Part shown: piece after piece, positions 1,169-64,000 of the stretch
Layout: every line of letters begins with the position of its first letter
How positions within the stretch are numbered: position 1 is the first letter of the stretch
Notes under the pieces: generated by a model
Told to the model about the DNA's origin: nothing
Databases searched by the model: none
The model's input: only the letters and a program-made list of their open reading frames with translations
From: Celeribacter litoreus
GTDB taxonomy: Bacteria; Pseudomonadota; Alphaproteobacteria; Rhodobacterales; Rhodobacteraceae
DNA length: 64,000 nt
Direction: 5' to 3'
Assembly: GCF_020165855.1 (NCBI RefSeq)
Contig: NZ_JAIUFY010000005.1
Span: forward strand, 855,243 to 919,242
Position numbers and translations under genes: made by a program

Positions 1169-2293
1169 ATGAGTGGACCTATGACCCAAGACGCCCCCCT
1201 CCTCGTGATCGCAGCCGGTGGCACCGGAGGACATATGTTTCCGGCGCAGTCGCTCGCCGAGGTGATGCTTGCGCGTGGCTGGCGAGTGAAACTGTCGACC
1301 GACGCCCGCGGTGCGCGTTACACGGGGGCTTTCCCGAAAGCCGTTGAAATCGACGTGCTGCCTTCCGCGACCTTTGCGCGGGGCGGAATTGCGGCGAAAG
1401 CCATGGTGTTCCCGCGTATCCTTGGCGGTGTTGCAAAAGCGATCCGCCACTTTTTGCGCGACAAGCCCGCCGTCGTCGTGGGTTTTGGTGGCTATCCGGC
1501 TATTCCGGCGGTGGCGGCCGCGACGCTGATGAAGCTGCCGCGCATGATCCACGAACAGAACGGCATTCTCGGCAAGGTCAATCAGGTCTTCGCCAAACGC
1601 GTGAACCAAGTTGCCTGCGGGACATGGCCGACGACGCTTCCCGAAGGAGTTCATGGTCTGCACGTTGGCAACCCCGTGCGGGGCGCCGTTCTCGAAAAAC
1701 ACGCGGCTGCTTACATCGCGCCGGGCGATTACCCGATGGAAATTCTTGTGATCGGTGGCTCCCAGGGCGCGCGCATTCTGTCGGATGTGGTGCCCTCCGC
1801 TGTCGCGCAGCTCCCGCAGTCGCTTCTCTCACACCTCCGAGTGAGCCAACAGGCGCGGCCCGAAGATCTCGACCGCGTGACGGAGTTTTATGAGGCGCAG
1901 GGCATTCAGGCCGATGTGCGGACCTTCTTTGACGATATCCCGAAACGGATGAGCGAAGCACAGCTCGTGATTTCGCGTTCTGGCGCCTCGACTGTCGCAG
2001 ATATCTCCGTGATTGGCCGTCCGTCGATCCTCATCCCGTTTGCCGCTGCCGCAGGGGATCACCAGACTGCAAATGCTCGTGGTCTTGTTGAGGCCAACGC
2101 CGCCGTGATGATCCCCGAGAGCCAGTTGACAGCCGAGAGCCTGTCCGAACAGGTCACCAATATTCTGAGCCAACCCGATGGCGCCCTGATGATGGCGCGG
2201 GCCGCGCTCTCCGTGGGCAAGCCTGAAGCCGCCGAGGAATTGGCTGTGCTCGTTGAGAGCCTTGCTTTCCCCGAAACCTACCCTGCCGCCTAA
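1169..2293 (+). CDS. murG: MurG, UDP-GlcNAc:undecaprenyl-pyrophosphoryl-MurNAc-pentapeptide transferase
   Basis: Cytoplasmic membrane-associated GT28 glycosyltransferase that converts lipid I to lipid II. The N-terminal glycine loop GGTGGH is at residues 17-22, a second glycine loop VGFGGYP near 109-115, HEQNG near 134 and GGSQGA in the C-terminal UDP-GlcNAc domain. At 374 residues the length is normal. A second in-frame ATG at 1181 (MTQDAPLL) matches the usual start of relatives equally well; neither has a strong ribosome binding site, so the start is uncertain by four codons. It lies between ftsW and murC in one transcription direction. Confidence 0.96.
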
Positions 2294-2314
2294 GACACGA
2301 GTGAGACCGAGAAG

Positions 2315-3712
2315 ATGAACGCATCTGCCACCAAACTGCCTACCGAGATGGGCGCAATCCACTTTGTCGGCATCGGCGGGATCGGCATGTCGGGCATTGC
2401 CGAAGTGCTGCTCAACCACGGCTATCAAGTGCAGGGCTCTGACCTGAAAGCCTCCAAGATCACGGATCGTCTCAAGGAGCTGGGCGCGGTCATCTACGAA
2501 GGCCAGCGGGCCGAGAATCTCGAGAATGCCGAGGTTGTGGTGATCTCAAGCGCGATCAAACCGGGCAATCCGGAGCTCGACGCGGCACGTCTGGCCGGTC
2601 TGCCGGTGGTGCGCCGCGCGGAAATGCTCGCAGAACTCATGCGCCTGAAATCCAACGTCGCGGTGGCCGGCACGCACGGCAAGACGACGACCACGACGCT
2701 CGTGGCCGAGTTGCTTGTGGCGGGCGGGATCGATCCGACGGTGATCAACGGCGGGATCATCCATGCCTATGGCTCCAACGCACGGATGGGGCAGGGCGAT
2801 TGGATGGTCGTGGAAGCCGACGAGAGCGACGGAACGTTCAACCGTCTGCCTGCGACGATTGCCATCGTGACCAACATTGATCCCGAACATATGGAACACT
2901 GGGGCACGATCGAAAACCTGCGTCAGGGCTTTTACGACTTCGTGTCGGGCATCCCGTTCTATGGTCTCGCCGTGTGCTGCACGGATCACCCCGAAGTTCA
3001 GTCTCTCGTGGGCAAGATTACGGACCGCCGTGTCGTGACCTATGGGTTCAATGCGCAAGCGGATGTGCGGGCGGTGAACCTGACCTACAAAAAGGGCGTC
3101 GCGCATTTCGACATCGTGCTCGCTGCCGACGACATCGTGATTGAGGGCTGTACCCTCCCGATGCCCGGGGATCACAATGTGTCCAATGCGCTGGCGGCTG
3201 TGGCTGTGTCCCGCCATCTCGGGATGAAAGCCGCAGAGATCAAAGAGGCGCTTGCGGCCTTTGGCGGTGTGAATCGCCGCTTTACCCGCGTGGGTGAAGT
3301 GAACGGTGTGACGATCATTGATGACTACGGCCATCACCCTGTGGAGATCGCCGCCGTGCTCAAAGCCGCGCGTCAGGCGTCCGAGGGGCGCGTGATTGCG
3401 GTGCACCAGCCGCACCGATATTCGCGTCTCCATACCCTCTTCGATGATTTCTGCACCTGTTTCAACGAGGCCGATGTGGTCGGCATTGCGGAGGTCTATG
3501 CCGCGGGTGAAGAGCCGATCGAAGGCGCGTCACGTGATGATCTCGTGGCTGGTCTGATCCGCCACGGCCACCGCCACGCGCGCGCGGTGACGTCCGAGGA
3601 CGATCTCGAACGGTTGGTGCGCGAGCAGACTGGTCCTGGAGATATCGTTGTCTGTCTGGGTGCTGGGACAATTTCGACTTGGGCGCATAATCTACCGAAC
3701 AGACTCGGCTAA
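2315..3712 (+). CDS. murC: MurC, UDP-N-acetylmuramate--L-alanine ligase
   Basis: ATP-dependent Mur ligase that adds the first L-alanine to UDP-MurNAc in the cytoplasm. The N-terminal Rossmann-like loop GIGGIGMSG is at residues 19-27 and the ATP-binding loop GTHGKTTT at 119-126. The central ADESDGTF motif and the NIDPEHM segment follow, as in the family. The 465-residue length is typical. The gene follows murG after 21 bp and is itself followed, unusually, by an amino-acid permease gene instead of murB. Confidence 0.97.
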
Positions 3713-3729
3713 CACTCACGGAGGCAGCG

Positions 3730-4917
3730 ATGGCACAGGCTTTGAAACGGAGGATCGGTCCCGGTCTTCTGACGGCCTATGGTGTCGGTGTTATGGTAGG
3801 CGCGGGCATTTACGTGCTCGTGGGTGCGGTCGCGGCGCAGGCGGGGCTGTATGCGCCTTTGGCGTTTCTACTCGCAGGTCTAATCGCCGCGCCCTCCGCG
3901 CTCTCCTATGCTGAACTCTCGACCCGTATTCCCGAAGCTGCTGGTGAAGCGGCCTATGTCGAGGCGGGCTTTGGCTCCCGTCTGCTGGGGCTGATCGTCG
4001 GTGTCGCCATCGTCATGGCGGGGACTATATCCGCAGCCGCCGTTTTGCGCGGCGGCGCGGGGTACTTAATCGGGTTTGTCGATATACCGTTTGCCGTGGC
4101 TATTGGCGGTCTTGGCCTGTTGCTCTTGGCCGTCGCCATTGTCGGCGTGCTGGAGAGCCTTGCGATGGCGGCTGTGTTTACGGTGATTGAGGTCATCGGG
4201 CTTGGCCTCGTCGTCTGGTCCGGTTGGCACGCGCCGATGTCGCCCGATTTTGCAACGCCGACGATGCCCTATCTCCCCGGTGTCGGTGTGGCGGCGACGC
4301 TCGCCTTCTTCGCCTTCATCGGGTTCGAAGACATTGTGAACATGGCCGAAGAGGTGCGGCGACCGGAGCGGACGCTACCGATTGCGATCATTGCCTCGCT
4401 GGTCATTACGACGCTGCTTTACGCCGGCGTGACCATCGCGGCGGTACGGGCCGTGCCGCTCGAAGTGTTAGCGGAGTCGGAGCGTCCGCTGGCTCTCGTG
4501 TATGAAGCGGGGGGCGGGCAAGCCGTTCTCCTCTCCGCGATTGCGGCGACAGCGGCGCTCAATGGCGTGCTTGCGCAGGTCGTTATGGCGGCGCGGGTGC
4601 TGTTCGGGCTTGGCAAACGTGGCAGCATCTTTAGGGTCTTTCACCATGCACACCCGCGCTTTGGCACACCTGTTCTCGCGACGTCACTGATCGGCGTGGT
4701 GGTCATCGGTGCGGCGCTGACAATGCCGGTTGCGAACCTTGCTGGTGTCACCTCCACTATTTTGCTCATCGTGTTTTCTGTCGTAAACGGGAGCCTGATT
4801 TTCCTCAAACGCAAGTCTCAAAAAGCCCCGTTCCGGGTTGCGGACTGGGTGCCGGTGGTGGGGCTGGTGTTTGCACTTCTGGCACTGTTTGCTTTTGTTA
4901 TGGGAGCGGTCGGATGA
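3730..4917 (+). CDS. APC-superfamily amino acid permease
   Basis: Integral membrane amino acid/polyamine/organocation (APC) transporter of 395 residues with about eleven to twelve hydrophobic segments. The segment 18-36, rich in GVGVMVGAGIY, is the characteristic broken first helix of the APC fold, and FIGFEDIVNMAEEVRRPERTLP is the conserved loop after helix 6. A good ribosome binding site (GGAGG, 3720-3724) precedes the ATG. The gene sits 17 bp after murC and overlaps the next small gene by ATGA, so it is probably transcribed with the mur genes. Substrate is unknown. Transporters are not a standard member of the dcw cluster, so this looks like a lineage-specific insertion. Confidence 0.9.
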   Translation: MAQALKRRIGPGLLTAYGVGVMVGAGIYVLVGAVAAQAGLYAPLAFLLAGLIAAPSALSYAELSTRIPEAAGEAAYVEAGFGSRLLGLIVGVAIVMAGTISAAAVLRGGAGYLIGFVDIPFAVAIGGLGLLLLAVAIVGVLESLAMAAVFTVIEVIGLGLVVWSGWHAPMSPDFATPTMPYLPGVGVAATLAFFAFIGFEDIVNMAEEVRRPERTLPIAIIASLVITTLLYAGVTIAAVRAVPLEVLAESERPLALVYEAGGGQAVLLSAIAATAALNGVLAQVVMAARVLFGLGKRGSIFRVFHHAHPRFGTPVLATSLIGVVVIGAALTMPVANLAGVTSTILLIVFSVVNGSLIFLKRKSQKAPFRVADWVPVVGLVFALLALFAFVMGAVG

Positions 4918-5186
4918 ACGAGTTGCTGAACCCTCTTGTGGCCATGGCGATCTGGGCGCTTGCGTGTATGGCGCTTGCACCGTTACCTATTAAGTATCAA
5001 ATCGTTCCGGGCCTGAGCTTGCTCGCCATGTTGCCCGTTTTGTTGATTTGGACCGGCATGACATACGGTGTCTGGCCGGTGCTGATCGGACTGGCTGCGG
5101 CCGCCTCGTTGTTTCGCAAGCCTTTGATCGCTCTCTGGCGATATCTTGGTCGGCGTCTCAAAGGACAGGATGGGAAGACAAAATGA
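4914..5186 (+). CDS. Small membrane protein, DUF2484-like
   Basis: A 90-residue protein with three hydrophobic segments (about 5-22, 30-47 and 50-68) and a basic tail. It resembles the next small protein in size, topology and C-terminal RKPL..LWRYLGRRLK pattern, and both look like the DUF2484 proteins found between murC and murB in Rhodobacteraceae. The start overlaps the permease stop (ATGA) and the stop overlaps the next start (ATGA), so translation is probably coupled. Function is unknown. It could be a diverged duplicate of its neighbour. Confidence 0.75.
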   Translation: MNELLNPLVAMAIWALACMALAPLPIKYQIVPGLSLLAMLPVLLIWTGMTYGVWPVLIGLAAAASLFRKPLIALWRYLGRRLKGQDGKTK

Positions 5187-5443
5187 CCCTATCTCTCGCG
5201 CTCGCTTGCATCTGGGCCATTCTGGCCAATGTGATCGCCATGTTCCCGTCGCGCCACCACCACTGGCCTGCGGCCTATGTGCTGATCGCGCTGGGGGTTC
5301 CCCTTCTGGGCTACGTCACATATGAGAACGGCCCATGGATCGCGCTCATCTGCTTTGCTGCGGGTGTGTCGATCCTGCGCTGGCCGGTGATTTATCTCGG
5401 CCGGTGGATCCGCAAGCTATTCGCAAAAGGTCCCGCACAATGA
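5183..5443 (+). CDS. DUF2484 family small membrane protein
   Basis: An 86-residue protein with two or three membrane segments, starting [17 protein letters not shown] and containing the MFPSRHHHW segment typical of DUF2484. This family is regularly found directly before murB in Rhodobacteraceae; its function is not known. An upstream frame extension to 5048 exists, but the ATG at 5183 overlaps the previous stop as ATGA and the stop overlaps the murB ATG in the same way, which fixes the start. Confidence 0.85.
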
Positions 5444-55636: not shown

Positions 55637-55726
55637 GGAGGCTTGGCAGAGTGGTCGAATGCACCGGTCTTGAAAACCGACGAGGGTGAAAGTCCTCCCA
55701 GGGTTCGAATCCCTGAGCCTCCGCCA
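55637..55726 (+). tRNA. tRNA-Ser (anticodon TGA)
   Basis: Acceptor GGAGGCT (55637-55643) pairs with AGCCTCC (55716-55722); G and CCA follow at 55723-55726. The anticodon loop CTTGAAA gives TGA. The long variable arm (GAGGGTGAAAGTCCTCC) is typical of tRNA-Ser, and GGTTCGAATCC is the T-arm. The outermost anticodon-stem pair is not Watson-Crick. The 292-bp gap before it holds nothing I can identify. Confidence 0.95.
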
Positions 55727-56234: not shown

Positions 56235-57143
56235 TTGGAAAAAGAACATCACGAGGACATGCAGATCGACGAAAGGATCATGAATGCCTACGCGAAGCTG
56301 ACCCCCCGCGAAAAGCAACTGGCCGAGGTTGTGTTGAGGGCGCAAAGCTCTCTGTCGAGCTATACAGCTGCGGAGCTCGCTGATACCGCAGGGGTGTCTG
56401 CGGCAACCGCTGCGCGTTTTTTCCGCCGGTTGGGATATAGCACTTACAACGAAGCACGACTCCATTCGAGGCGCAAAGCCGGATGGGGGTCTCCGTTCGA
56501 GCATCTTCAGGACACGCCGCAGCAGGAGGGAGATTTCCATCATCATGTTGCGCAGGATAGCGAGAACCTATCGCGCACACTTGAAACGATCGATGTATCT
56601 CAGATTGAGGAGGCCGTCGGATATCTCGCGCAGGCGCGTCGCGTCTGGATCGTCGGATACCGCAACTCGCGCGCTTTGGCGCAATACGCTCACATGCTGC
56701 TTTTGAATTTCTCGTCAGACGTCCATCTGCTGCCTCGCGATGCTGGGGCGTCTTTGGGAGAGGATTTGGCCAGCCTTCGTTCCGATGATGTCGTTTTGGT
56801 CATGGCGATGCGGCGACGGCCGCGCGTTCTCGGTGGGATCGTGACAATCGCGCGGGAGGCGGGGGCCCCCGTCATAATGATCAGCGATCCAACGCTTGGA
56901 GAAACGGGCGCAGATGCCACGGTGTGTTTGCGGTGCCAGAACAAAGGGGCGGGTATCTTCGATAGCATGGTCGTGCCGATCAGTCTGATCAACCATCTCT
57001 GCGCGCGGCTGGTCGCGATAAAGGGCGCGGAATTGAAAGAAAGGCTCGCTGGAATCGAACGCCTGCATGAGCGTGTAGATGACCTGAGCCCTGGTGTCTC
57101 TGTGCAGGGTCTGCCTGATTTTCCGTCAACCTCTGATCAATAG
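56235..57143 (+). CDS. RpiR-family transcriptional regulator (HTH + SIS)
   Basis: A 302-residue regulator with an N-terminal helix-turn-helix (about 18-80: LTPREKQLAEVVL, SYTAAELADTAGVSAATAARFFRRLGY) and a C-terminal SIS domain (about 125-250: VWIVGYRNSRALAQY, LASLRSDDVVLVMAMRRRPR) that binds a phosphosugar or other ligand. The TTG at 56235 is chosen because AAGGAG lies at the right distance; the nearest ATG (56259) has a site only two bases away. It is directly upstream of the importer-lyase operon, on the same strand, and is its likely regulator. Confidence 0.9.
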   Translation: MEKEHHEDMQIDERIMNAYAKLTPREKQLAEVVLRAQSSLSSYTAAELADTAGVSAATAARFFRRLGYSTYNEARLHSRRKAGWGSPFEHLQDTPQQEGDFHHHVAQDSENLSRTLETIDVSQIEEAVGYLAQARRVWIVGYRNSRALAQYAHMLLLNFSSDVHLLPRDAGASLGEDLASLRSDDVVLVMAMRRRPRVLGGIVTIAREAGAPVIMISDPTLGETGADATVCLRCQNKGAGIFDSMVVPISLINHLCARLVAIKGAELKERLAGIERLHERVDDLSPGVSVQGLPDFPSTSDQ

Positions 57144-57168
57144 GCGCAGAAATTCAGCGAATTTTGTT

Positions 57169-57216
57169 GTGAAATAAGTATTTCAGAAAATTTCTTTGAT
57201 GAAATACTAATTTCAC
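57169..57216. promoter_or_regulatory. 48-bp double-palindrome operator candidate for the importer-lyase operon
   Basis: Left arm GTGAAATAAGTATTTCA (57169-57185) and right arm TGAAATACTAATTTCAC (57200-57216) are inverted copies with one mismatch in 17. Each arm is itself a TGAAAT-N4-ATTTCA palindrome, and GAAAATTTC (57186-57194) sits in the spacer. The two centres are 31 bp apart, about three helical turns. It lies between the RpiR gene and the binding-protein gene. GAAA/TTTC palindromes are typical of RpiR-family sites, so binding by the adjacent regulator is likely but inferred. Confidence 0.75.
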
Positions 57217-57273
57217 AAATAGAACTTGGAAGAGATTACGTTCCTCTTTCTTCCACGTTCGAAAGGATTCCAA

Positions 57274-58341
57274 ATGCTTCGCAGAGACTTTATCAAATCC
57301 GCCATGGCGGGGACCGCGCTCGGCGCGCTCGGCCCCGCTGCCCGTGCCATTGCCAGCACCGACATTCTTTGGATGACCTGGGAAAACCTCGCCAAGGATG
57401 ACTACCTCGCGCCCTTCCTCGACAGCCGCGACATTTCCATCACGAAGACCTTTATCGGAACCGACGATGAACAATTCGCCAAGCTGCGCGCCGGCGGCGC
57501 CTCCTCGGTCGATCTGATCACACCGGGCCTCGACAAAGTTGAGTACTACACAGCCTCCGATCTGCTTCAGCCGATCGATTTCGAAAAAGTGCCGAATGCT
57601 GCACTGCTCTACGACACGTTCAAAGCGACGTCGCTCGGCAAAGTCGATGGTGAGACCTACGGGATTCCGTTCTACTGGGGTATCAACCCGATTGTTTACC
57701 GCGCTGACCTGATGGACGAAGAGCCGGATTGGTCCGTTTTCTTCGAGGGGGACGCCTATAACGGCAAGCTCGCGATGCGTGACTATGCCCTCGAAGGCAT
57801 CATGATTGCGGCGATGTATCTCGGGATTCCCGAGGACGAAATGTTCCATATGGATGACAAACAGCTCGCTGAAATCAAAAAGGTTCTGATGATCCAGAAG
57901 AGCAAGCTTCGGACTTATTGGAACTCCATCGGTGATCTGACCAACCTGTTCGCGACAGGTGAAGTGGTCTGCGCGTTCTCCTGGGTGCCGCCGTATTACG
58001 ACCTGAAAGCCAAAGGCATCGAGATGGGCATGGCCAAGCCGAAACAGGGTGTGATCGGCTGGTGCGACACCATCGCTGTGCCAAAAGGCGTCTCTGGCGC
58101 GCGTCTGGATGCCACGTTTGAGTTGGTGAACTACCTGCTCGGCGAGGAATACGGCAAGATGCTCGCGGTCGGTGGCCCCTATGCGCAATCGACCTCCGCT
58201 GCGCGTGATCTTCTGACCGAAGAAGAACAGGACAAAATCTTCATCAAAGATCTTTCTGTGATGGACAACTTCGTCTGGAAGCAGAACCCGCCGCGTTACA
58301 ACGAGTGGGTTGCCCTGTGGAATGAAGTGAAAGCCAGCTAA
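57274..58341 (+). CDS. Tat-exported ABC substrate-binding protein, spermidine/putrescine (PotD) type
   Basis: A 355-residue periplasmic solute-binding protein. The N-terminus MLRRDFIKSAMAGTALGALG with twin arginines at 3-4 is a Tat signal. ILWMTWENL (near 30), a PotD-like GVDGETYGIPFYWGINPIVYR equivalent (about 120-145) and FVWKQNPPRYNEWVALWNEVK at the end match polyamine-type binding proteins. The usual acidic polyamine contacts cannot be confirmed by eye, so the ligand may be another small cationic or zwitterionic compound. The ATG at 57274 has AAGGA upstream; the frame is open to 57226. It is the first gene of the operon. Confidence 0.92.
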   Translation: MLRRDFIKSAMAGTALGALGPAARAIASTDILWMTWENLAKDDYLAPFLDSRDISITKTFIGTDDEQFAKLRAGGASSVDLITPGLDKVEYYTASDLLQPIDFEKVPNAALLYDTFKATSLGKVDGETYGIPFYWGINPIVYRADLMDEEPDWSVFFEGDAYNGKLAMRDYALEGIMIAAMYLGIPEDEMFHMDDKQLAEIKKVLMIQKSKLRTYWNSIGDLTNLFATGEVVCAFSWVPPYYDLKAKGIEMGMAKPKQGVIGWCDTIAVPKGVSGARLDATFELVNYLLGEEYGKMLAVGGPYAQSTSAARDLLTEEEQDKIFIKDLSVMDNFVWKQNPPRYNEWVALWNEVKAS

Positions 58342-59483
58342 TGACATCGCGTTCCTCGCGAAAGTTGGAAGGAGGCGGGCGCTCTGCGCGCCCGCTTCTC
58401 GAGGCTTTCAAACTAACCAAAACCTACGGCACAGTTCAGGCTGTGCGTGGCGTTGATTTCGCTCTCTCAGAGAATAGCTACGTGACGCTTCTCGGGCCGT
58501 CCGGCTGCGGCAAGACCTCAATCCTGCGCATGATTGGCGGTTTCGAGAGTGTTAGCTCCGGCGCCCTGTCTCTCGATGGCAATCGTCTCGACGAAACTGC
58601 GGCCAACCAGCGTCCGATCAACACAGTTTTCCAAAACTATGCGCTGTTTCCGCATCTGTCCGTGCTGGAAAACGTTGCCTTCGGCCTGAGCTATCGCGAC
58701 GTGGCGAAGTCCCAGATCAAAGCCCTTGCAATGGACGCGCTGAAAACCGTTCAGATGGAGGCCATGGCCGACCGTCGTCCCCGCCAGCTGTCTGGCGGAC
58801 AACAGCAGCGCGTTGCTCTGGCGCGGGCCATTGTCAATGAACCCCGACTTTTGCTTCTGGATGAGCCGCTTTCTGCTCTGGACCGCAGGATGCGCAAGGA
58901 CATGCAGATCGAGTTGAAAGACCTGCAACGTCGTCTGGGGATGACCTTTTTGCATGTGACCCACGATCAGGAAGAGGCCTTTGCGCTCTCTGACCAGATC
59001 ATCGTTATGCGCGATGGTCGCATCGAACAACAGGGTTCTCCAGAGGCCATCTATGCGCAACCCGAAACCGCCTATGTCGCTGATTTCATTGGGGGTGCTG
59101 CCTGCATTCCTGCGGATGTGATAGTGCGCGAAGAGACAAATGTCGTGTTGAAGTCTGCCTTTGGGACTTTCACCGTGCCGAGTGTGCCATCTTTGAGCAT
59201 GGGGGGCAAAGCTGTGCTGTGTCTGCGCCCGGAACAGGTTTCCGTCGTGCAAGCAGAGCCAGAAGGCAAAGCCACCCTGAAAGCCCGCGTGGTTCATCAG
59301 GTTTACCGCGGCTCCGACTGGTTGTTGGAATGCGACTGCGGAGACCAGATTGTGCAGGTCCTCCACAGAGATACGCCGCCGGCGGTTGGCGATGACGTCA
59401 TCTTGGCGTTCGACACGTCTAAAGTCTGGGCCGCTGCTGCCGATCCGCGTGTTGCTACACTCTCAGAGACAGGAGCGGCGTAA
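58341..59483 (+). CDS. ABC transporter ATPase, PotA type
   Basis: A 380-residue ATPase. Walker A GPSGCGKTS is at 52-60, the Q-loop VFQNYALFPHLSV at 96-108, the signature LSGGQQQ at 150-156, Walker B LLLDEP at 171-176 and the switch histidine in HVTHDQEEA. A C-terminal TOBE domain (about 265-370) is present, as in PotA/MalK-type subunits. Its ATG overlaps the binding-protein stop (TAATG), so the two are translationally coupled. Confidence 0.95.
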   Translation: MTSRSSRKLEGGGRSARPLLEAFKLTKTYGTVQAVRGVDFALSENSYVTLLGPSGCGKTSILRMIGGFESVSSGALSLDGNRLDETAANQRPINTVFQNYALFPHLSVLENVAFGLSYRDVAKSQIKALAMDALKTVQMEAMADRRPRQLSGGQQQRVALARAIVNEPRLLLLDEPLSALDRRMRKDMQIELKDLQRRLGMTFLHVTHDQEEAFALSDQIIVMRDGRIEQQGSPEAIYAQPETAYVADFIGGAACIPADVIVREETNVVLKSAFGTFTVPSVPSLSMGGKAVLCLRPEQVSVVQAEPEGKATLKARVVHQVYRGSDWLLECDCGDQIVQVLHRDTPPAVGDDVILAFDTSKVWAAAADPRVATLSETGAA

Positions 59484-60346
59484 TGCGGCGCTCGATCCTA
59501 TCTGTCGGGGATTGGTTGGCGCTGCCTGTGGTCGCGGCGCTGATCGCACTATGTTGCGCGCCTCTGCTGATCCTCTTGGCCTACTCGTTTTTTCAGGTCG
59601 ATTTCGTGACCATCTCTCACGATCTGACGCTGGCCAACTATGCCAAAATCGCGGGCTCGGAAACCTATCGAAGCCTGATCGCGCGGGCTTTTGGCTCCGC
59701 TTTGCTCGTGGTCGCGCTCACGGCGGTCATAGCCTATCCCGTCGCATGGTTCATCGCCAAACGTGTTCACGCCGCGAAATCGACTCTGCTCACCTTGCTG
59801 CTCGTCCCGCTGTATTCGGGCGATCTGATCCGAATTTTCGCATGGCGTGTTCTTCTCGGTGCAGAGGGCGCGATCAACCGCAGCCTGATGTGGCTCAATG
59901 TGATTGATGAACCACTTTCCGGTCTGCTGTTCAGCCCTTTGGCCACGCATATCGCACTGACTTACAATTATCTGCCGTTCATGGTGATCGGGCTGTGGCT
60001 CGCCTTCGAAAGTCTTGATGATAGATGGCTCGAAGCGGCTGCCGATCTCGGGGCGCCGACCCACGCACGGTTCCTGCGGGTGATCCTGCCTCTGACTGTG
60101 CCGGGTCTCGTTGCGGGTGGGCTTATGGTATTTGTCATGGTCGCTGGTGACTATCTCACGCCCCAGCTCTTGGGCGGTGCATCCGGCATCACGATCATTT
60201 CGGCAATCAACGATCTGTTCGGGACGGCATTCGACTGGCCGCTCGGATCGGCCATCGCATGGACCATGCTCTCTATCCTGATGCTCTGTTTCGGCCTCGG
60301 CGCTTTGGCCATTCGCCGCTCCAGCCTCGTTGCGGAGGATGTGTGA
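59483..60346 (+). CDS. ABC transporter permease, PotB type
   Basis: A 287-residue inner-membrane permease with six hydrophobic segments. The coupling-helix (EAA) motif is WLEAAADLGAPTHARFLRVILPL, in about 184-206. It overlaps the ATPase stop (TAATG) and the next permease start (TGATG). Family: binding-protein-dependent transport, spermidine/putrescine group. Confidence 0.93.
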   Translation: MRRSILSVGDWLALPVVAALIALCCAPLLILLAYSFFQVDFVTISHDLTLANYAKIAGSETYRSLIARAFGSALLVVALTAVIAYPVAWFIAKRVHAAKSTLLTLLLVPLYSGDLIRIFAWRVLLGAEGAINRSLMWLNVIDEPLSGLLFSPLATHIALTYNYLPFMVIGLWLAFESLDDRWLEAAADLGAPTHARFLRVILPLTVPGLVAGGLMVFVMVAGDYLTPQLLGGASGITIISAINDLFGTAFDWPLGSAIAWTMLSILMLCFGLGALAIRRSSLVAEDV

Positions 60347-61119
60347 TGACACGTGTTGCAACCTTCTGGGTCTACCTGGTTTTCGGGTTCATGTACCTGC
60401 CGATTGCGATGATCCTGCTCTTCTCGGTCAATGACGCCGATGTCATGGCATTTCCGATCCGCGGGCTGACTTCTGCCTGGTATGCCGACATCCTGTCGGA
60501 CGCGCGTTTGGGCGGCGGGTTCCTGACGACGCTTTTCGTCGCCTTCCCTGTGGCGATCCTGTCGACGTTGTTCGGAGCTGCAGCCGCCCTCGCGCTGGTG
60601 TTCTATCCGGTCCGTTGGAGGGGGCTATTCGCAGCTGCGCTGCTGCTGCCGTTCCTCGTGCCGCGTTTGATCCTCGCGGTGGCGCAGCTTATCCTGTTCA
60701 AAGAGGTGAGTGTCGACCGTTCGCTGTGGACTGTGATCGCAGGCCAGTCGATCATCATCCTGCCGTTCTCTACGCTGATCATCGCCTCCGTGCTAATCCG
60801 TCTAGATCGCAGACTGATCGAAGCGGCAGCTGATCTCGGCGCTTCAGGAAGGTCGAGCTTTCGCCGCGTGGTTCTGCCGCTCATGGGTAACGGGCTTTTG
60901 GCCTCTTGGGTCATCGCGTTTGTGCTGTCCTCTTCGGAATATGTCCTCACCGCCTTCCTCAGTGGGCGCGAGCAGCCGCTCTCCGTCCTCGTGGCATCGG
61001 ATTTCCGGTTCAACCTTTCCCCAAGTCTGAATGCGCTCGCTGTGCTGATCGTGTTCGGGAACATCGCGCTTGTCGTGTTGGCGGAAGCCATCCGACGGCG
61101 CTCGGGCTCAAAAGCCTAA
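60346..61119 (+). CDS. ABC transporter permease, PotC type
   Basis: A 257-residue permease with six hydrophobic segments and the EAA motif LIEAAADLGASGRSSFRRVVLP (about 158-180). The ATG at 60346 overlaps the previous stop; the frame is open to 60259. Together with the preceding three genes it makes a complete polyamine-type ABC importer. The lyase gene begins 22 bp later. Confidence 0.93.
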   Translation: MTRVATFWVYLVFGFMYLPIAMILLFSVNDADVMAFPIRGLTSAWYADILSDARLGGGFLTTLFVAFPVAILSTLFGAAAALALVFYPVRWRGLFAAALLLPFLVPRLILAVAQLILFKEVSVDRSLWTVIAGQSIIILPFSTLIIASVLIRLDRRLIEAAADLGASGRSSFRRVVLPLMGNGLLASWVIAFVLSSSEYVLTAFLSGREQPLSVLVASDFRFNLSPSLNALAVLIVFGNIALVVLAEAIRRRSGSKA

Positions 61120-61141
61120 CTCATTTTTTTTGGAAGATCCC

Positions 61142-62410
61142 ATGACTGATACGATCAAATTCACCAATGCGCTTGGCAATAGCTCTATCTCCGAGCTTGT
61201 GTTCAACCGTCACTATGCGCCGGACGTGGATTACACACCTGAACAGGCCGCTGTTCTAAACGATGCAAACTTTGTGACGGCGCAAGAGACTATTGCGGCA
61301 TGGCCCGGTTACGCGCCCACGCCGCTTCTGGCCTTGACTGAGATGGCCAAAGACGCCGGCTTGGCCAGCCTTCATTACAAGGACGAAGGTGGGCGTTTCG
61401 GCCTCGGAAGCTTCAAAGCGCTCGGTGGCGCCTATGCGGTGCTTCGGCTTATCATGTCGGAAATCTCCGCCAGAACCGGAGCGCCTGAACCGAGCGTGCA
61501 GGAGATTTTGGGCGGCACTTACAAGGATATCTTGGCTGGGATCACCGTCTGTTGTGCGACAGATGGCAACCACGGGCGCTCAGTTGCGTGGGGCGCGCAA
61601 ACCTTCGGCTGCAACTGCGTGATCTTTATTCACGCGACTGTTTCCGAGGGGCGCAAGAGTGCGATTGAGAGCTTCGGGGCAGAGGTCCGTCGCACCGCAG
61701 GCAATTACGATGAAAGTGTGCGCGAGGCCGACGAGACGGCGCGTGAAGAAGGCTGGTTCGTGGTTTCCGACACGTCCTATGAAGGCTACACGGAAATCCC
61801 GAAAAACGTGATGCAAGGCTATGAGATTATGGCGGCCGAGGCGGCTGATCAGCTTGCCGATGGAAGTTTTGAGCCTCCAACCCACGTCTTCTTGCAAACC
61901 GGAGTAGGGGGCGCGGCGGCGGCTGTCGCTGCTCAGTTGCGTCGGCGCTATGGCGCGGAGAAGGCTCCTAAAATCATTCTTGCCGATCCCGACAAATCCG
62001 CCTGCTGGCTTGAAACGCTGCGCAACGGCACTCCGACGGCGGTTGAGGGCGATCTCGATACGCTGATGGCGGGCTTGGCCTGCGGCGAGATTTCTCTCTT
62101 GGCTTGGGACGTGTTGAAGCCGCTCGCATGTGCGGCGGTGTCCGTTGCAGACGCGGATGCGGTCAGCGTGATGAAGATGCTAGCCTCGCAAACCGGAAAC
62201 GATCCGGCGATTGTCGCGGGCGAGTCCGCCGTTGCTGGTCTCGCGGCCTGTATCGCGGTCGCGGCATACCCAGAGGCGGCGCAGGCCATCGGCCTCGGCG
62301 CGGACAGCCGTGTGCTGGTCTTCGGTTCAGAGGGCGACAGCGATCCCGAGCTCTATGAACAGCTCGTGGGCCGCACGGCCGCCGAAGTTCGTGGAGATGT
62401 CATAGCATGA
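61142..62410 (+). CDS. dpaL: Diaminopropionate ammonia-lyase
   Basis: PLP enzyme of fold type II, 422 residues, that converts 2,3-diaminopropionate to pyruvate and two ammonia. The PLP lysine is K92 in GSFKALGGAY (89-98), a sequence diagnostic of this family. CCATDGNHGRSVAWGAQ, the phosphate-binding loop QTGVGGAAAA and the C-terminal FGSEGDSDPELY follow in order. The E. coli counterpart is YgeX. The ATG at 61142 follows the permease by 22 bp, and the stop overlaps the next start by ATGA. Threonine/serine dehydratase is the alternative, but GSFKALGG and the overall length favour the lyase. Confidence 0.9.
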   Translation: MTDTIKFTNALGNSSISELVFNRHYAPDVDYTPEQAAVLNDANFVTAQETIAAWPGYAPTPLLALTEMAKDAGLASLHYKDEGGRFGLGSFKALGGAYAVLRLIMSEISARTGAPEPSVQEILGGTYKDILAGITVCCATDGNHGRSVAWGAQTFGCNCVIFIHATVSEGRKSAIESFGAEVRRTAGNYDESVREADETAREEGWFVVSDTSYEGYTEIPKNVMQGYEIMAAEAADQLADGSFEPPTHVFLQTGVGGAAAAVAAQLRRRYGAEKAPKIILADPDKSACWLETLRNGTPTAVEGDLDTLMAGLACGEISLLAWDVLKPLACAAVSVADADAVSVMKMLASQTGNDPAIVAGESAVAGLAACIAVAAYPEAAQAIGLGADSRVLVFGSEGDSDPELYEQLVGRTAAEVRGDVIA

Positions 62411-63693
62411 GCGTTGCGATCAAAATCGACCGCCTCATGGCGCGGATTTTCGAACTCGGGAAAATTGGCGCTCTCCCAAATGGCGGCTGTAAACGTCTTG
62501 CGCTCAGTGAAGAAGACAAGGCCGGTCGTGCGCTTGTCACCGGTTGGTTTCATACGCTCGGACTTGAGGTTCATACTGACGTGATCGGCAACACTTGGGC
62601 CATCCGGCCGGACCGGCACGGGAGCACGGAGCATCCCATCGTGATGGGGTCTCATATCGACACCGTGGGCACCGGCGGTCTCTACGATGGCAACCTTGGC
62701 GTGCTCGGGGGGCTTGAAGTGATCGAAAGCCTTATCGACGCAGGTGTTCAGACCGAACGCCCCGTAGCTGTCGCCTTCTTCACCAACGAAGAGGGCGCGC
62801 GCTTTCAGCCGGATATGATGGGCTCTGGCGTGGCGCAGGGCGAACTTGATCTTGCCGAAATGCTGGCGACTGTCGGGATCGATGGCATGAGTGTTTCCGA
62901 GGCACTGGACGCGATCGGCGCACGGGGTGACGAGCCCGTCGGTGCGCTCAAACCCTCAGCCTATCTCGAACTCCATGTCGAACAGGGGCCGGTCCTTGAG
63001 GCCGAAGGCCTCGACATTGGCGTTGTCACGGGTGTGCAGGGCATTTCGTGGTCAGAATTCGCGATCTCCGGTCAATCCTGCCACGCGGGGACAACGCCGA
63101 TGCCAATGCGCCACGACGCGGGTGTCGTTGCCGCAGGGATCGCGATTGAAGCGCGCGCCATCGCTCAAGACTTTGGCGCCCCGCAGGTAGCCACCGTGGG
63201 TCGCATGCATTTTGCGCCGGATCTCGTGAACGTCGTGCCAGAAGAAGCCCGTTTGACGGTCGATCTGCGTAACACTTCGGAGGGGGTGCTGCAAAAAGCC
63301 GAAGCGCGTTTGTTTGCCAAGGCAGAGGCGCTCGCGGCAGCGGAAGGCTGCACCATCAGCCGTCAAAGCCTCGCCCGTTTCGAACCGGTCGCTTTCGATC
63401 GTGACTTGATCGAAAGCATAGGGCAGGGCGCAGCAGAACTTGGGTTCGCGTCCCGCAGGATGCCGTCGGGGGCGGGCCATGACGCACAGATGTTTGCCCC
63501 ACATTGCCCCTCCGCGATGATCTTCGTGCCGTCGAGAGATGGCATCAGTCACAATATCAACGAATACACCGCGCCGGATCAAATCGCCAAAGGGGTCGCC
63601 CTTCTGGCCAAGGTCGTCTTGGCGCAGGCCGGGCCGGAGCAAATCCTACCTGACCGACAACAGCCCGCCACAGCACAAGGAATCCCCTCATGA
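62407..63693 (+). CDS. M20-family Zn amidohydrolase, carbamoylase/ureidopropionase type
   Basis: A 428-residue dimetal hydrolase of the N-carbamoyl-L-amino-acid hydrolase/allantoate amidohydrolase/beta-ureidopropionase group. Metal ligands: H83 in GSHIDTV, bridging D94 in YDGNLG, E128-E129 in TNEEGARF, a histidine in ELHVEQGPVLE and the C-terminal GAGHDAQMFA. The lid domain segment HAGTTPMPMRHDA is also present. It removes a carbamoyl group, releasing CO2 and ammonia. The overlap with the lyase gene (ATGA) argues that its product feeds the lyase. The E. coli ygeX gene also has an M20 neighbour, ygeY, though of another subgroup. Confidence 0.9.
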   Translation: MSVAIKIDRLMARIFELGKIGALPNGGCKRLALSEEDKAGRALVTGWFHTLGLEVHTDVIGNTWAIRPDRHGSTEHPIVMGSHIDTVGTGGLYDGNLGVLGGLEVIESLIDAGVQTERPVAVAFFTNEEGARFQPDMMGSGVAQGELDLAEMLATVGIDGMSVSEALDAIGARGDEPVGALKPSAYLELHVEQGPVLEAEGLDIGVVTGVQGISWSEFAISGQSCHAGTTPMPMRHDAGVVAAGIAIEARAIAQDFGAPQVATVGRMHFAPDLVNVVPEEARLTVDLRNTSEGVLQKAEARLFAKAEALAAAEGCTISRQSLARFEPVAFDRDLIESIGQGAAELGFASRRMPSGAGHDAQMFAPHCPSAMIFVPSRDGISHNINEYTAPDQIAKGVALLAKVVLAQAGPEQILPDRQQPATAQGIPS

Positions 63694-64000
63694 GCCGTAA
63701 AATGATTGTCGCCACCGCGCAGCTCGGTCCGATCGCACGCGATGAACCCCGCGCTTCGGCCGTGGCCCGTATGGTTGCTTTGATGGAACAGGCGCATGTG
63801 CGCGGTGTGAAGCTCATCGTCTTTCCGGAGTTGGCGCTGACGACGTTTTTCCCGCGCTGGATGATCGAAGACGAGGACGAGCTTGCCGCCTTTTTTGAGA
63901 CGGAAATGCCGAACGCGGAGACACAGCCTCTGTTCGATACCGCCAAACGGTTGAGCATGGGGTTCTATCTTGGCTACGCAGAAGAGGTCGTCGAAGAGGG
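63690..64000 (+). CDS. N-carbamoyl-D-amino-acid hydrolase (nitrilase superfamily), 3' end outside window
   Basis: The frame begins at ATG 63690, overlapping the M20 stop by ATGA, and stays open for 103 codons to the window end. MSRKMIVATAQLGPIAR and IVFPELALTTFFPRW match the D-carbamoylase family closely; E47 in FPELAL is the first residue of the nitrilase Glu-Lys-Cys triad. The Lys and Cys lie beyond the window, so activity cannot be confirmed. A cytoplasmic enzyme that hydrolyses N-carbamoyl-D-amino acids to the D-amino acid, CO2 and ammonia is expected. Confidence 0.85.
   Translation, partial: MSRKMIVATAQLGPIARDEPRASAVARMVALMEQAHVRGVKLIVFPELALTTFFPRWMIEDEDELAAFFETEMPNAETQPLFDTAKRLSMGFYLGYAEEVVEE

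Follow-up and report, generated by a model that had tools for sequence, protein, structure and literature searches.

Described RpiR operators and the dyad pair

In the part of a 2025 preprint that is available (PMC12713135), crystal structures of RpiR-family proteins are tetrameric, and a tetramer of Escherichia coli MurR is proposed to bridge two adjacent sites, 17 bp apart over 47 bp, at murR-murQP. The same part describes NanR of Streptococcus pneumoniae (SpNanR), a dimer-tetramer protein that recognizes a TGAAA/TTTCA near-palindrome and is proposed to make a second contact nearby. HexR and RccR of Pseudomonas, which regulate catabolic genes and belong to the same family, also bind palindromes (available part of PMC5489143). 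The two-site operator architecture is already known in kind; what may be new in the present work is a clade-wide spacing of the two sites together with the replacement of a ligand loop in the regulator. A literature search, with most subscription papers outside its scope, returned no operator paper for the RRR-loop RpiR clade described below, including its Rhizobium plasmid members at loci L113, L114 and L135.

The locus lies in a 64-kb stretch of DNA, which we call the window. As the sequence-only reading had placed it, the pair of dyads stands between an RpiR gene upstream and a co-oriented transport and catabolic operon downstream. The features are as follows.

56235..57143, + strand: RpiR-family regulator with HTH_6 and SIS domains and an RRR loop replacing the sugar-phosphate loop (domain search, loop alignment)
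57170..57185, no strand: first dyad of the putative operator, TGAAAT-AAGT-ATTTCA (motif scan; half-sites fully kept in L004)
57186..57199, no strand: 14-bp spacer between the dyads, containing the non-conserved GAAAATTTC (8/14 bases conserved and a 1-bp indel against L004)
57200..57215, no strand: second dyad of the putative operator, TGAAAT-ACTA-ATTTCA (motif scan; half-sites fully kept in L004)
57274..58341, + strand: solute-binding protein, the first gene past the dyads (domain and family search; start codon aligned with L004)
58341..59483, + strand: ABC transporter ATPase, PotA-like, below equivalog cut-offs (domain and family search)
59483..60346, + strand: ABC permease (domain and family search)
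60343..61119, + strand: ABC permease (domain and family search)
61136..62410, + strand: diaminopropionate ammonia-lyase family enzyme (NF006058, 483.6 bits against a cut-off of 276)
62407..63693, + strand: M20 hydantoinase/carbamoylase family amidase (TIGR01879, 403.4 bits against a cut-off of 204)
63690..64000, + strand: carbon-nitrogen (CN) hydrolase, a 324-aa frame that runs past the window end (domain search, frame extended beyond the window)

A tRNA-Ser gene (anticodon TGA) lies at 55637-55726, about 500 bp before the regulator gene.

The 17-mer at 57169-57185 (GTGAAATAAGTATTTCA) recurs in inverted orientation at 57200-57216 (TGAAATACTAATTTCAC) with a single mismatch, and both are dyads of TGAAAT-N4-ATTTCA, self-complementary at 14/16 positions in the first and 12/16 in the second. 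Sequence comparison thereby bears out the earlier description of two 17-bp inverted copies, each palindromic in itself; a repeat search at 57169-57216 gives 24-nt arms, 88% complementary and 4 nt apart. The 31-bp spacing that accompanied this description holds for the 17-mers in their own register: each has an additional base, on opposite sides, and their centers are 31 bp apart. As the dyad spacing in the window it was rejected as an effect of that register, since the dyad centers fall at 57177.5 and 57207.5, 30 bp apart in an element that spans 46 bp.

In the nearest relative, Celeribacter naphthalenivorans (L004), whose RpiR protein is 89% identical to that of the window, the intergenic bases are kept at 24/24 positions in the half-sites, 1/8 in the dyad centers, 8/14 in the spacer and 59/84 in the rest of the gap. 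The dyads of L004 are 31 bp apart by virtue of the spacer indel and span 47 bp. Because the half-sites are kept entirely while centers and gap drift, constraint appears to act on the four half-sites and, more loosely, on how far apart they stand. The sequence at 57186-57194, GAAAATTTC, which had been put forward as a further element between the dyads, is lost in this relative, so we rejected it as a further site and place it, on sequence conservation, probably outside the element. Few close orthologues exist; RpiR proteins with more than 50% identity to the window protein were confined to the window's own genome and G012 among 20 genus genomes, with G572 in addition among 390 order genomes; a related-locus search of genome contigs gave one locus.

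With up to one mismatch, TGAAAT-N4-ATTTCA occurs twice in the window, whereas 100 dinucleotide shuffles average 0.05 matches and never reach two, a comparison that understates local A+T because the intergenic region is 33% GC in a window of 59% GC. The relatives are stronger evidence for the element than this shuffle. Throughout the 3.66-Mb genome, the exact motif is found at only the two window sites. Four more sites, one of them before a second RpiR gene, carry one mismatch, which makes six matches in all against three for a reversed-pattern control; these four single sites are near the control level.

Taken together, these features resemble MurR most closely in layout: an RpiR-family regulator, two adjacent sites and a proposed tetramer, with an operator span of 47 bp in the available part of PMC12713135 against 46 bp in the window and 47 bp in L004, the pair lying beside the regulator at an operon and being kept in orthologues. 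MurR differs in sensing a sugar phosphate, with an ISYSGS loop where the window protein has MAMRRRP, in serving another pathway and in being only 22% identical to the window RpiR in the alignment. A scan of the E. coli MurR intergenic DNA gave no convincing TGAAA-N6-TTTCA pair (best 18/24 at 24 bp; a 32-bp repeat, 16/24). As far as the same part of the preprint describes it, SpNanR differs in having half-sites 4 bp apart rather than 6 and one full site with a degenerate half-site about 23 bp downstream, in being an activator and in belonging to a sialic-acid pathway. The sites of HexR (TTGT-N7-8-ACAA) and RccR (TGTAGT/ACTACA, either 15 or 28 bp long; aceE has two of the 15-bp sites, separated by 68 bp) are different again, and the effector of these proteins is KDPG (PMC5489143, available part). 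HexR identity was rejected for the window RpiR, which scores 66.8 bits with NF008451 against a cut-off of 296. By analogy, the most economical reading is that of a MurR-like two-site operator for a clade that would sense non-sugar ligands.

The RRR-loop clade and the spacing of its dyads

The window regulator has an N-terminal HTH_6 domain (PF01418, 47.5 bits, cut-off 28.3) and a C-terminal SIS domain (PF01380, 33.2 bits, cut-off 25), the composition of the MurR/RpiR family, and the neighbor of the dyads is, as had been claimed, an RpiR regulator. The phosphosugar loop of the SIS domain is a motif of the S-x-S/T-G type. In the loop alignment, ISYSGSKKEI of MurR stands opposite MAMRRRPRVL of the window protein, a replacement on which we rejected placing it in the sugar-phosphate-sensing subgroup. 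The phosphate loop of RpiR proteins is described as highly conserved in the available part of PMC12713135; most members of the window's clade have a loop of the form [FLMI]RR[RKP].

We collected 124 RpiR genes by protein, pattern and HTH_6 searches and kept 89 after near-duplicates (L005, L114, L116 and others) had been left out of the clade counts. Proteins with the arginine-rich, mostly RRR, loop form one group of 39 in the tree (support 100/99, midpoint root). Loop patterns had counted L052 and L089, neither of which has a pair, as RR and L107 as sugar type; the tree groups the first two with sugar-type proteins and assigns L107 to the RR clade, which gives 39 members instead of 41 and 50 others instead of 48. 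L086 (31 aa) was left out of the tree. Pairs of TGAAA-N6-TTTCA were scored at a threshold of at least 18/20 matches within about 300 bp of the regulator, the region being kept to 60 bp past the regulator start. A pair spaced 29-31 bp is present in 14 of the 39 non-redundant clade members (13/38 without the window). When the scan was run on 41 genes, two of them outside the tree group, it gave 28 pairs over 16-110 bp, half of which fall in 3 of the 95 spacings; 100 dinucleotide shuffles of this set gave 0.01 pairs in total at any spacing. For the clade without the window, 19 permuted half-site arrangements gave no pair at 16-110 bp. At the same threshold, none of the 50 other RpiR genes has a pair, at 29-31 bp or elsewhere; at 17/20, 48 genes run as others gave pairs at 27, 44, 44 and 93 bp, four in all where 0.17 would be expected. 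We note that the two groups were not drawn alike, in that searches with the window protein supplied most of the RRR-loop genes and strong HTH_6 matches most of the others. A few clade members have a spacing of 39, 42-43 or 46 bp, and in 25 of the 39 the stretch of about 300 bp around the regulator holds no strong pair; these genes may have sites in another place, drifted sites or none at all.

In a motif-free test on 188 regions at 94 RpiR genes, near-duplicates included, 13 best pairs fell at 29-31 bp against 0.95 in shuffles, although about half of these are unlike the motif and may have arisen by chance. At a strict threshold, five pairs remained where shuffles gave 0.14, and the window and its close orthologue account for two of them. 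The regions here extended no more than 20 bp past the regulator start, and the pair of L044 was missed for that reason. This pair, at 1501-1547, overlaps the called start of its RpiR gene, and the true start may therefore lie further downstream.

Other spacings were seen in the vicinity of this clade. At the RRR-loop gene of L107, 25-126 bp past the RpiR stop, three dyads follow each other at distances of 43 and 42 bp, which is about four turns of the helix. In a neighboring RpiR group with an RRYE-type loop, pairs of TGWAR-N6-YTWCA stand 44 bp apart before the regulator in 6 of the 17 genes examined (L053, L054, L057, L058, L065 and L067, with L054, L057 and L058 having been added as look-alikes of L053). 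Several other genes of this group have weak 29-31 bp pairs, and L065 has a weak third site at 29 bp.

The 29-31 bp spacing is steady in alpha- and betaproteobacterial relatives while dyad centers and gap sequence drift, as would be expected if the protein fixed the distance, and the spacing as such seems to matter for the operator. The sequence shows the dyads, their conservation, this spacing and their link to the RpiR clade and to a set of genes; the pair is very probably the binding place of the neighboring RpiR regulator. We infer from these observations a model for binding, tetramer formation, repression and effector class. One RpiR dimer would occupy each TGAAA-N6-TTTCA dyad through its HTH domains, and two dyads 30 bp apart, close to three helical turns, would bring two dimers to about the same face of the DNA. 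Three turns of 10.5 bp amount to 31.5 bp, so the observed 29-31 bp are slightly under three turns and same-face binding is plausible. The SIS domains of the two dimers could then join into a tetramer and make binding cooperative, a tetramer bridging two sites being drawn by analogy from the literature on other RpiR proteins (PMC12713135, available part). Bound 58 bp before ATG 57274 of the solute-binding protein, RpiR would most likely repress the operon until an effector that binds the SIS domain releases it from the operator. Loop and gene content would suggest as effector a compound that the pathway takes in or forms on the way, substrate or intermediate, probably an amino acid in carbamoylated or free form rather than a sugar phosphate. 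We have good, though far from complete, confidence in this reading as a whole, in which the dyads are the operator of the upstream RpiR, bound by one dimer each and cooperatively through a SIS tetramer, with the transporter, lyase and carbamoylase operon likely repressed until the effector is present.

Two dimers could instead bind the dyads independently, with the 30 bp kept by promoter geometry or descent rather than by contact, as is conceivable given that SpNanR dimers bind single sites with nanomolar affinity (PMC12713135, available part). We regard this as unlikely, since 29-31 bp is kept despite the drift of centers and gap, in varied gene contexts and on either side of the regulator gene, and since the plasmid loci L115 and L116 have three successive dyads at exact 30-bp steps. 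These arrays, at 5942-6017 in L115 and 5900-5975 in L116, lie on Cupriavidus plasmids at an RpiR start before lyase and carbamoylase genes and include a degenerate fourth dyad.

Whether RpiR tetramers measure distance on DNA, which is only a proposal in the available part of PMC12713135, could be tested directly on the conserved 30-bp step. The pair also supplies a concrete operator motif, together with its spacing, for an RpiR clade seemingly tied to amino-acid-derived rather than sugar-phosphate substrates, and the targets of some unstudied RpiR regulators would become predictable from DNA. A broader generalization, to which we give slightly less than an even chance, is that this clade swapped the sugar-phosphate loop for an arginine-rich loop suited to acids and regulates amino-acid, hydantoin and N-carbamoyl amino-acid pathways from TGAAA-N6-TTTCA sites every 30 ± 1 bp, sometimes three in number, with a tetramer or a chain of dimers that reads distance as well as sequence.

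The operon and loci with the same enzyme genes

The ATPase and two permeases of the operon are of the spermidine/putrescine type. We do not claim polyamine as the substrate because no transporter protein of the operon reaches an NCBIfam cut-off for polyamine transport among the matches listed. On two Rhizobium plasmids, a dihydropyrimidinase closes the transporter operon, and the genes of the three enzymes make up a divergent unit; their annotations are diaminopropionate ammonia-lyase, Zn-dependent hydrolase and N-carbamoyl-D-amino-acid hydrolase. This arrangement points to uptake of a hydantoin- or ureido-type compound followed by its opening, decarbamoylation and deamination, the exact substrate being suggested by gene content. 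The Rhizobium plasmid RpiR genes L113, L114 and L135 resemble that of the window in their RRR loop and in having carbamoylase and dihydropyrimidinase neighbors; L113 and L114 also share enzymes, transporter and dyad pair with the window, and L135 differs in having no strong pair near the gene.

A large-locus scan covered 16 loci and L004, 17 in all; among plasmid loci, 21 were fetched out of 62 plasmid records with a match. In 9 of the 17, lyase and M20 genes share the locus with an RpiR gene, and the CN hydrolase is present in these as well, except in L004, which ends inside M20. All nine, like the window, have a 30-31 bp pair, so that the check proposed in the sequence-only reading, repeats upstream of orthologous operons, finds them conserved in L004 and every other fetched locus with the enzymes near RpiR. 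The pair is strong (at least 18/20) in the window, L004, L113, L114, L115, L116, L118, L120 and L123, and weak (16/20) in L121, which has one in each of the two gaps around RpiR. The remaining eight loci, without lyase genes, have a 29-31 bp pair in L122, L127 and L128 and none in L117, L119, L124, L125 and L126, an unfair sample because several loci were picked after a pair had been seen: L121, L122, L123, L127 and L128 were chosen with a pair or candidate pair already seen, L120 as the best relative and L124-L126 with no pair known; the choice of L113-L119 followed their rank.

In the window, L004, L113, L114 and L120, the pair occupies the gap that separates RpiR from the binding protein. 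In Cupriavidus, the order is RpiR and then lyase, with the pair before RpiR (L118) or across the RpiR alignment start (L115, L116), start codons in relatives being automatic choices. The comparison found no homologue of the window transporter in L115 or L116 and only an ATPase at 36% identity in L118. Across these arrangements the pair goes with the head of the unit.

L123 (G000:C9:355000-370000) is a second cluster in the window's own genome, with lyase, M20 and CN hydrolase 58-68% identical to those of the window and its own paralogous RpiR, before which stands a 31-bp pair. Another regulator, such as this paralogue, could therefore bind the window pair, or both paralogues could share the sites, given that the pair before the paralogue gene is similar, includes a one-mismatch match to the full motif and accompanies a second set of the same enzymes. 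We consider this very improbable; the paralogue is only 33-35% identical to the window RpiR, and it is the adjacent RpiR that accompanies the pair in the nine relatives with the enzymes.

The inverted relation of the two copies also admits an RNA hairpin, a terminator or attenuator after rpiR in which the copies fold on each other. Folding energies are -20 kcal/mol in the window (z -5.8), -15.6 in L004 (z -5.1) and -16.6 in L044/L122 (z -2.6), and the middle six bases, compared over 15 pairs, match at 40/90 positions in the inverted register against 29/90 in the direct one. Folds of L111 and L104 were set aside because the stretches used there span less than the two dyads. However, any two dyads sharing one motif pair mutually, and a search for a terminator-like site on the operon strand found none. 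In addition, L113, with a pair at the corresponding position, folds no more stably than its shuffles (z -0.7), and in L115, L116 and L118 the dyads are at or before the regulator start. We rejected a hairpin as the main function and hold it to be remote.

The direction of control is a separate matter. A MurR-like two-site operator would overlap -35 and -10 elements; a scan of 56900-57400 gave no sigma-70-like promoter (shuffle mean 0.3), and since none was recognized near the dyads we infer the mode of action. Where no promoter can be placed, the regulator could bind the pair as an activator, in the manner of SpNanR; SpNanR is reported to activate, with its effector stabilizing the tetramer (PMC12713135, available part), and an RpiR activator is also described in Lactococcus (PMC6528599, available part). 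Against this, all RpiR regulators so far reported are, according to PMC12713135 and with SpNanR excepted, repressors, and activation appears quite unlikely beside the repression proposed above.

Occurrence of the pair in wider genome sets

We scanned 394 family genomes for exact pairs with a dyad spacing of 18-46 bp. Matches were confined to three genomes, against none for a reversed-pattern control: the window's own (30 bp), G336 (31 bp) and G261 (44 bp). In G336 the pair runs across the start called for an RRR-loop RpiR gene, so that in two of the three genomes, at 30 and 31 bp, the pair is at such a gene; the G261 pair lies between convergent genes, with no RpiR in the 3 kb examined. A class-wide scan for pairs at exactly 30 bp with two mismatches gave 14/240 genomes against 5 for the reversed control, so a degenerate pair alone is not diagnostic. 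At a further locus (L129), a 1209-aa frame with repeated segments lies beyond the operon at 1758-5387 (translations judged by eye; part of the stretch is N), and the other strand past this frame has ABC-exporter-like and membrane-fusion-like genes, which perhaps indicates a type I secreted repeat protein.
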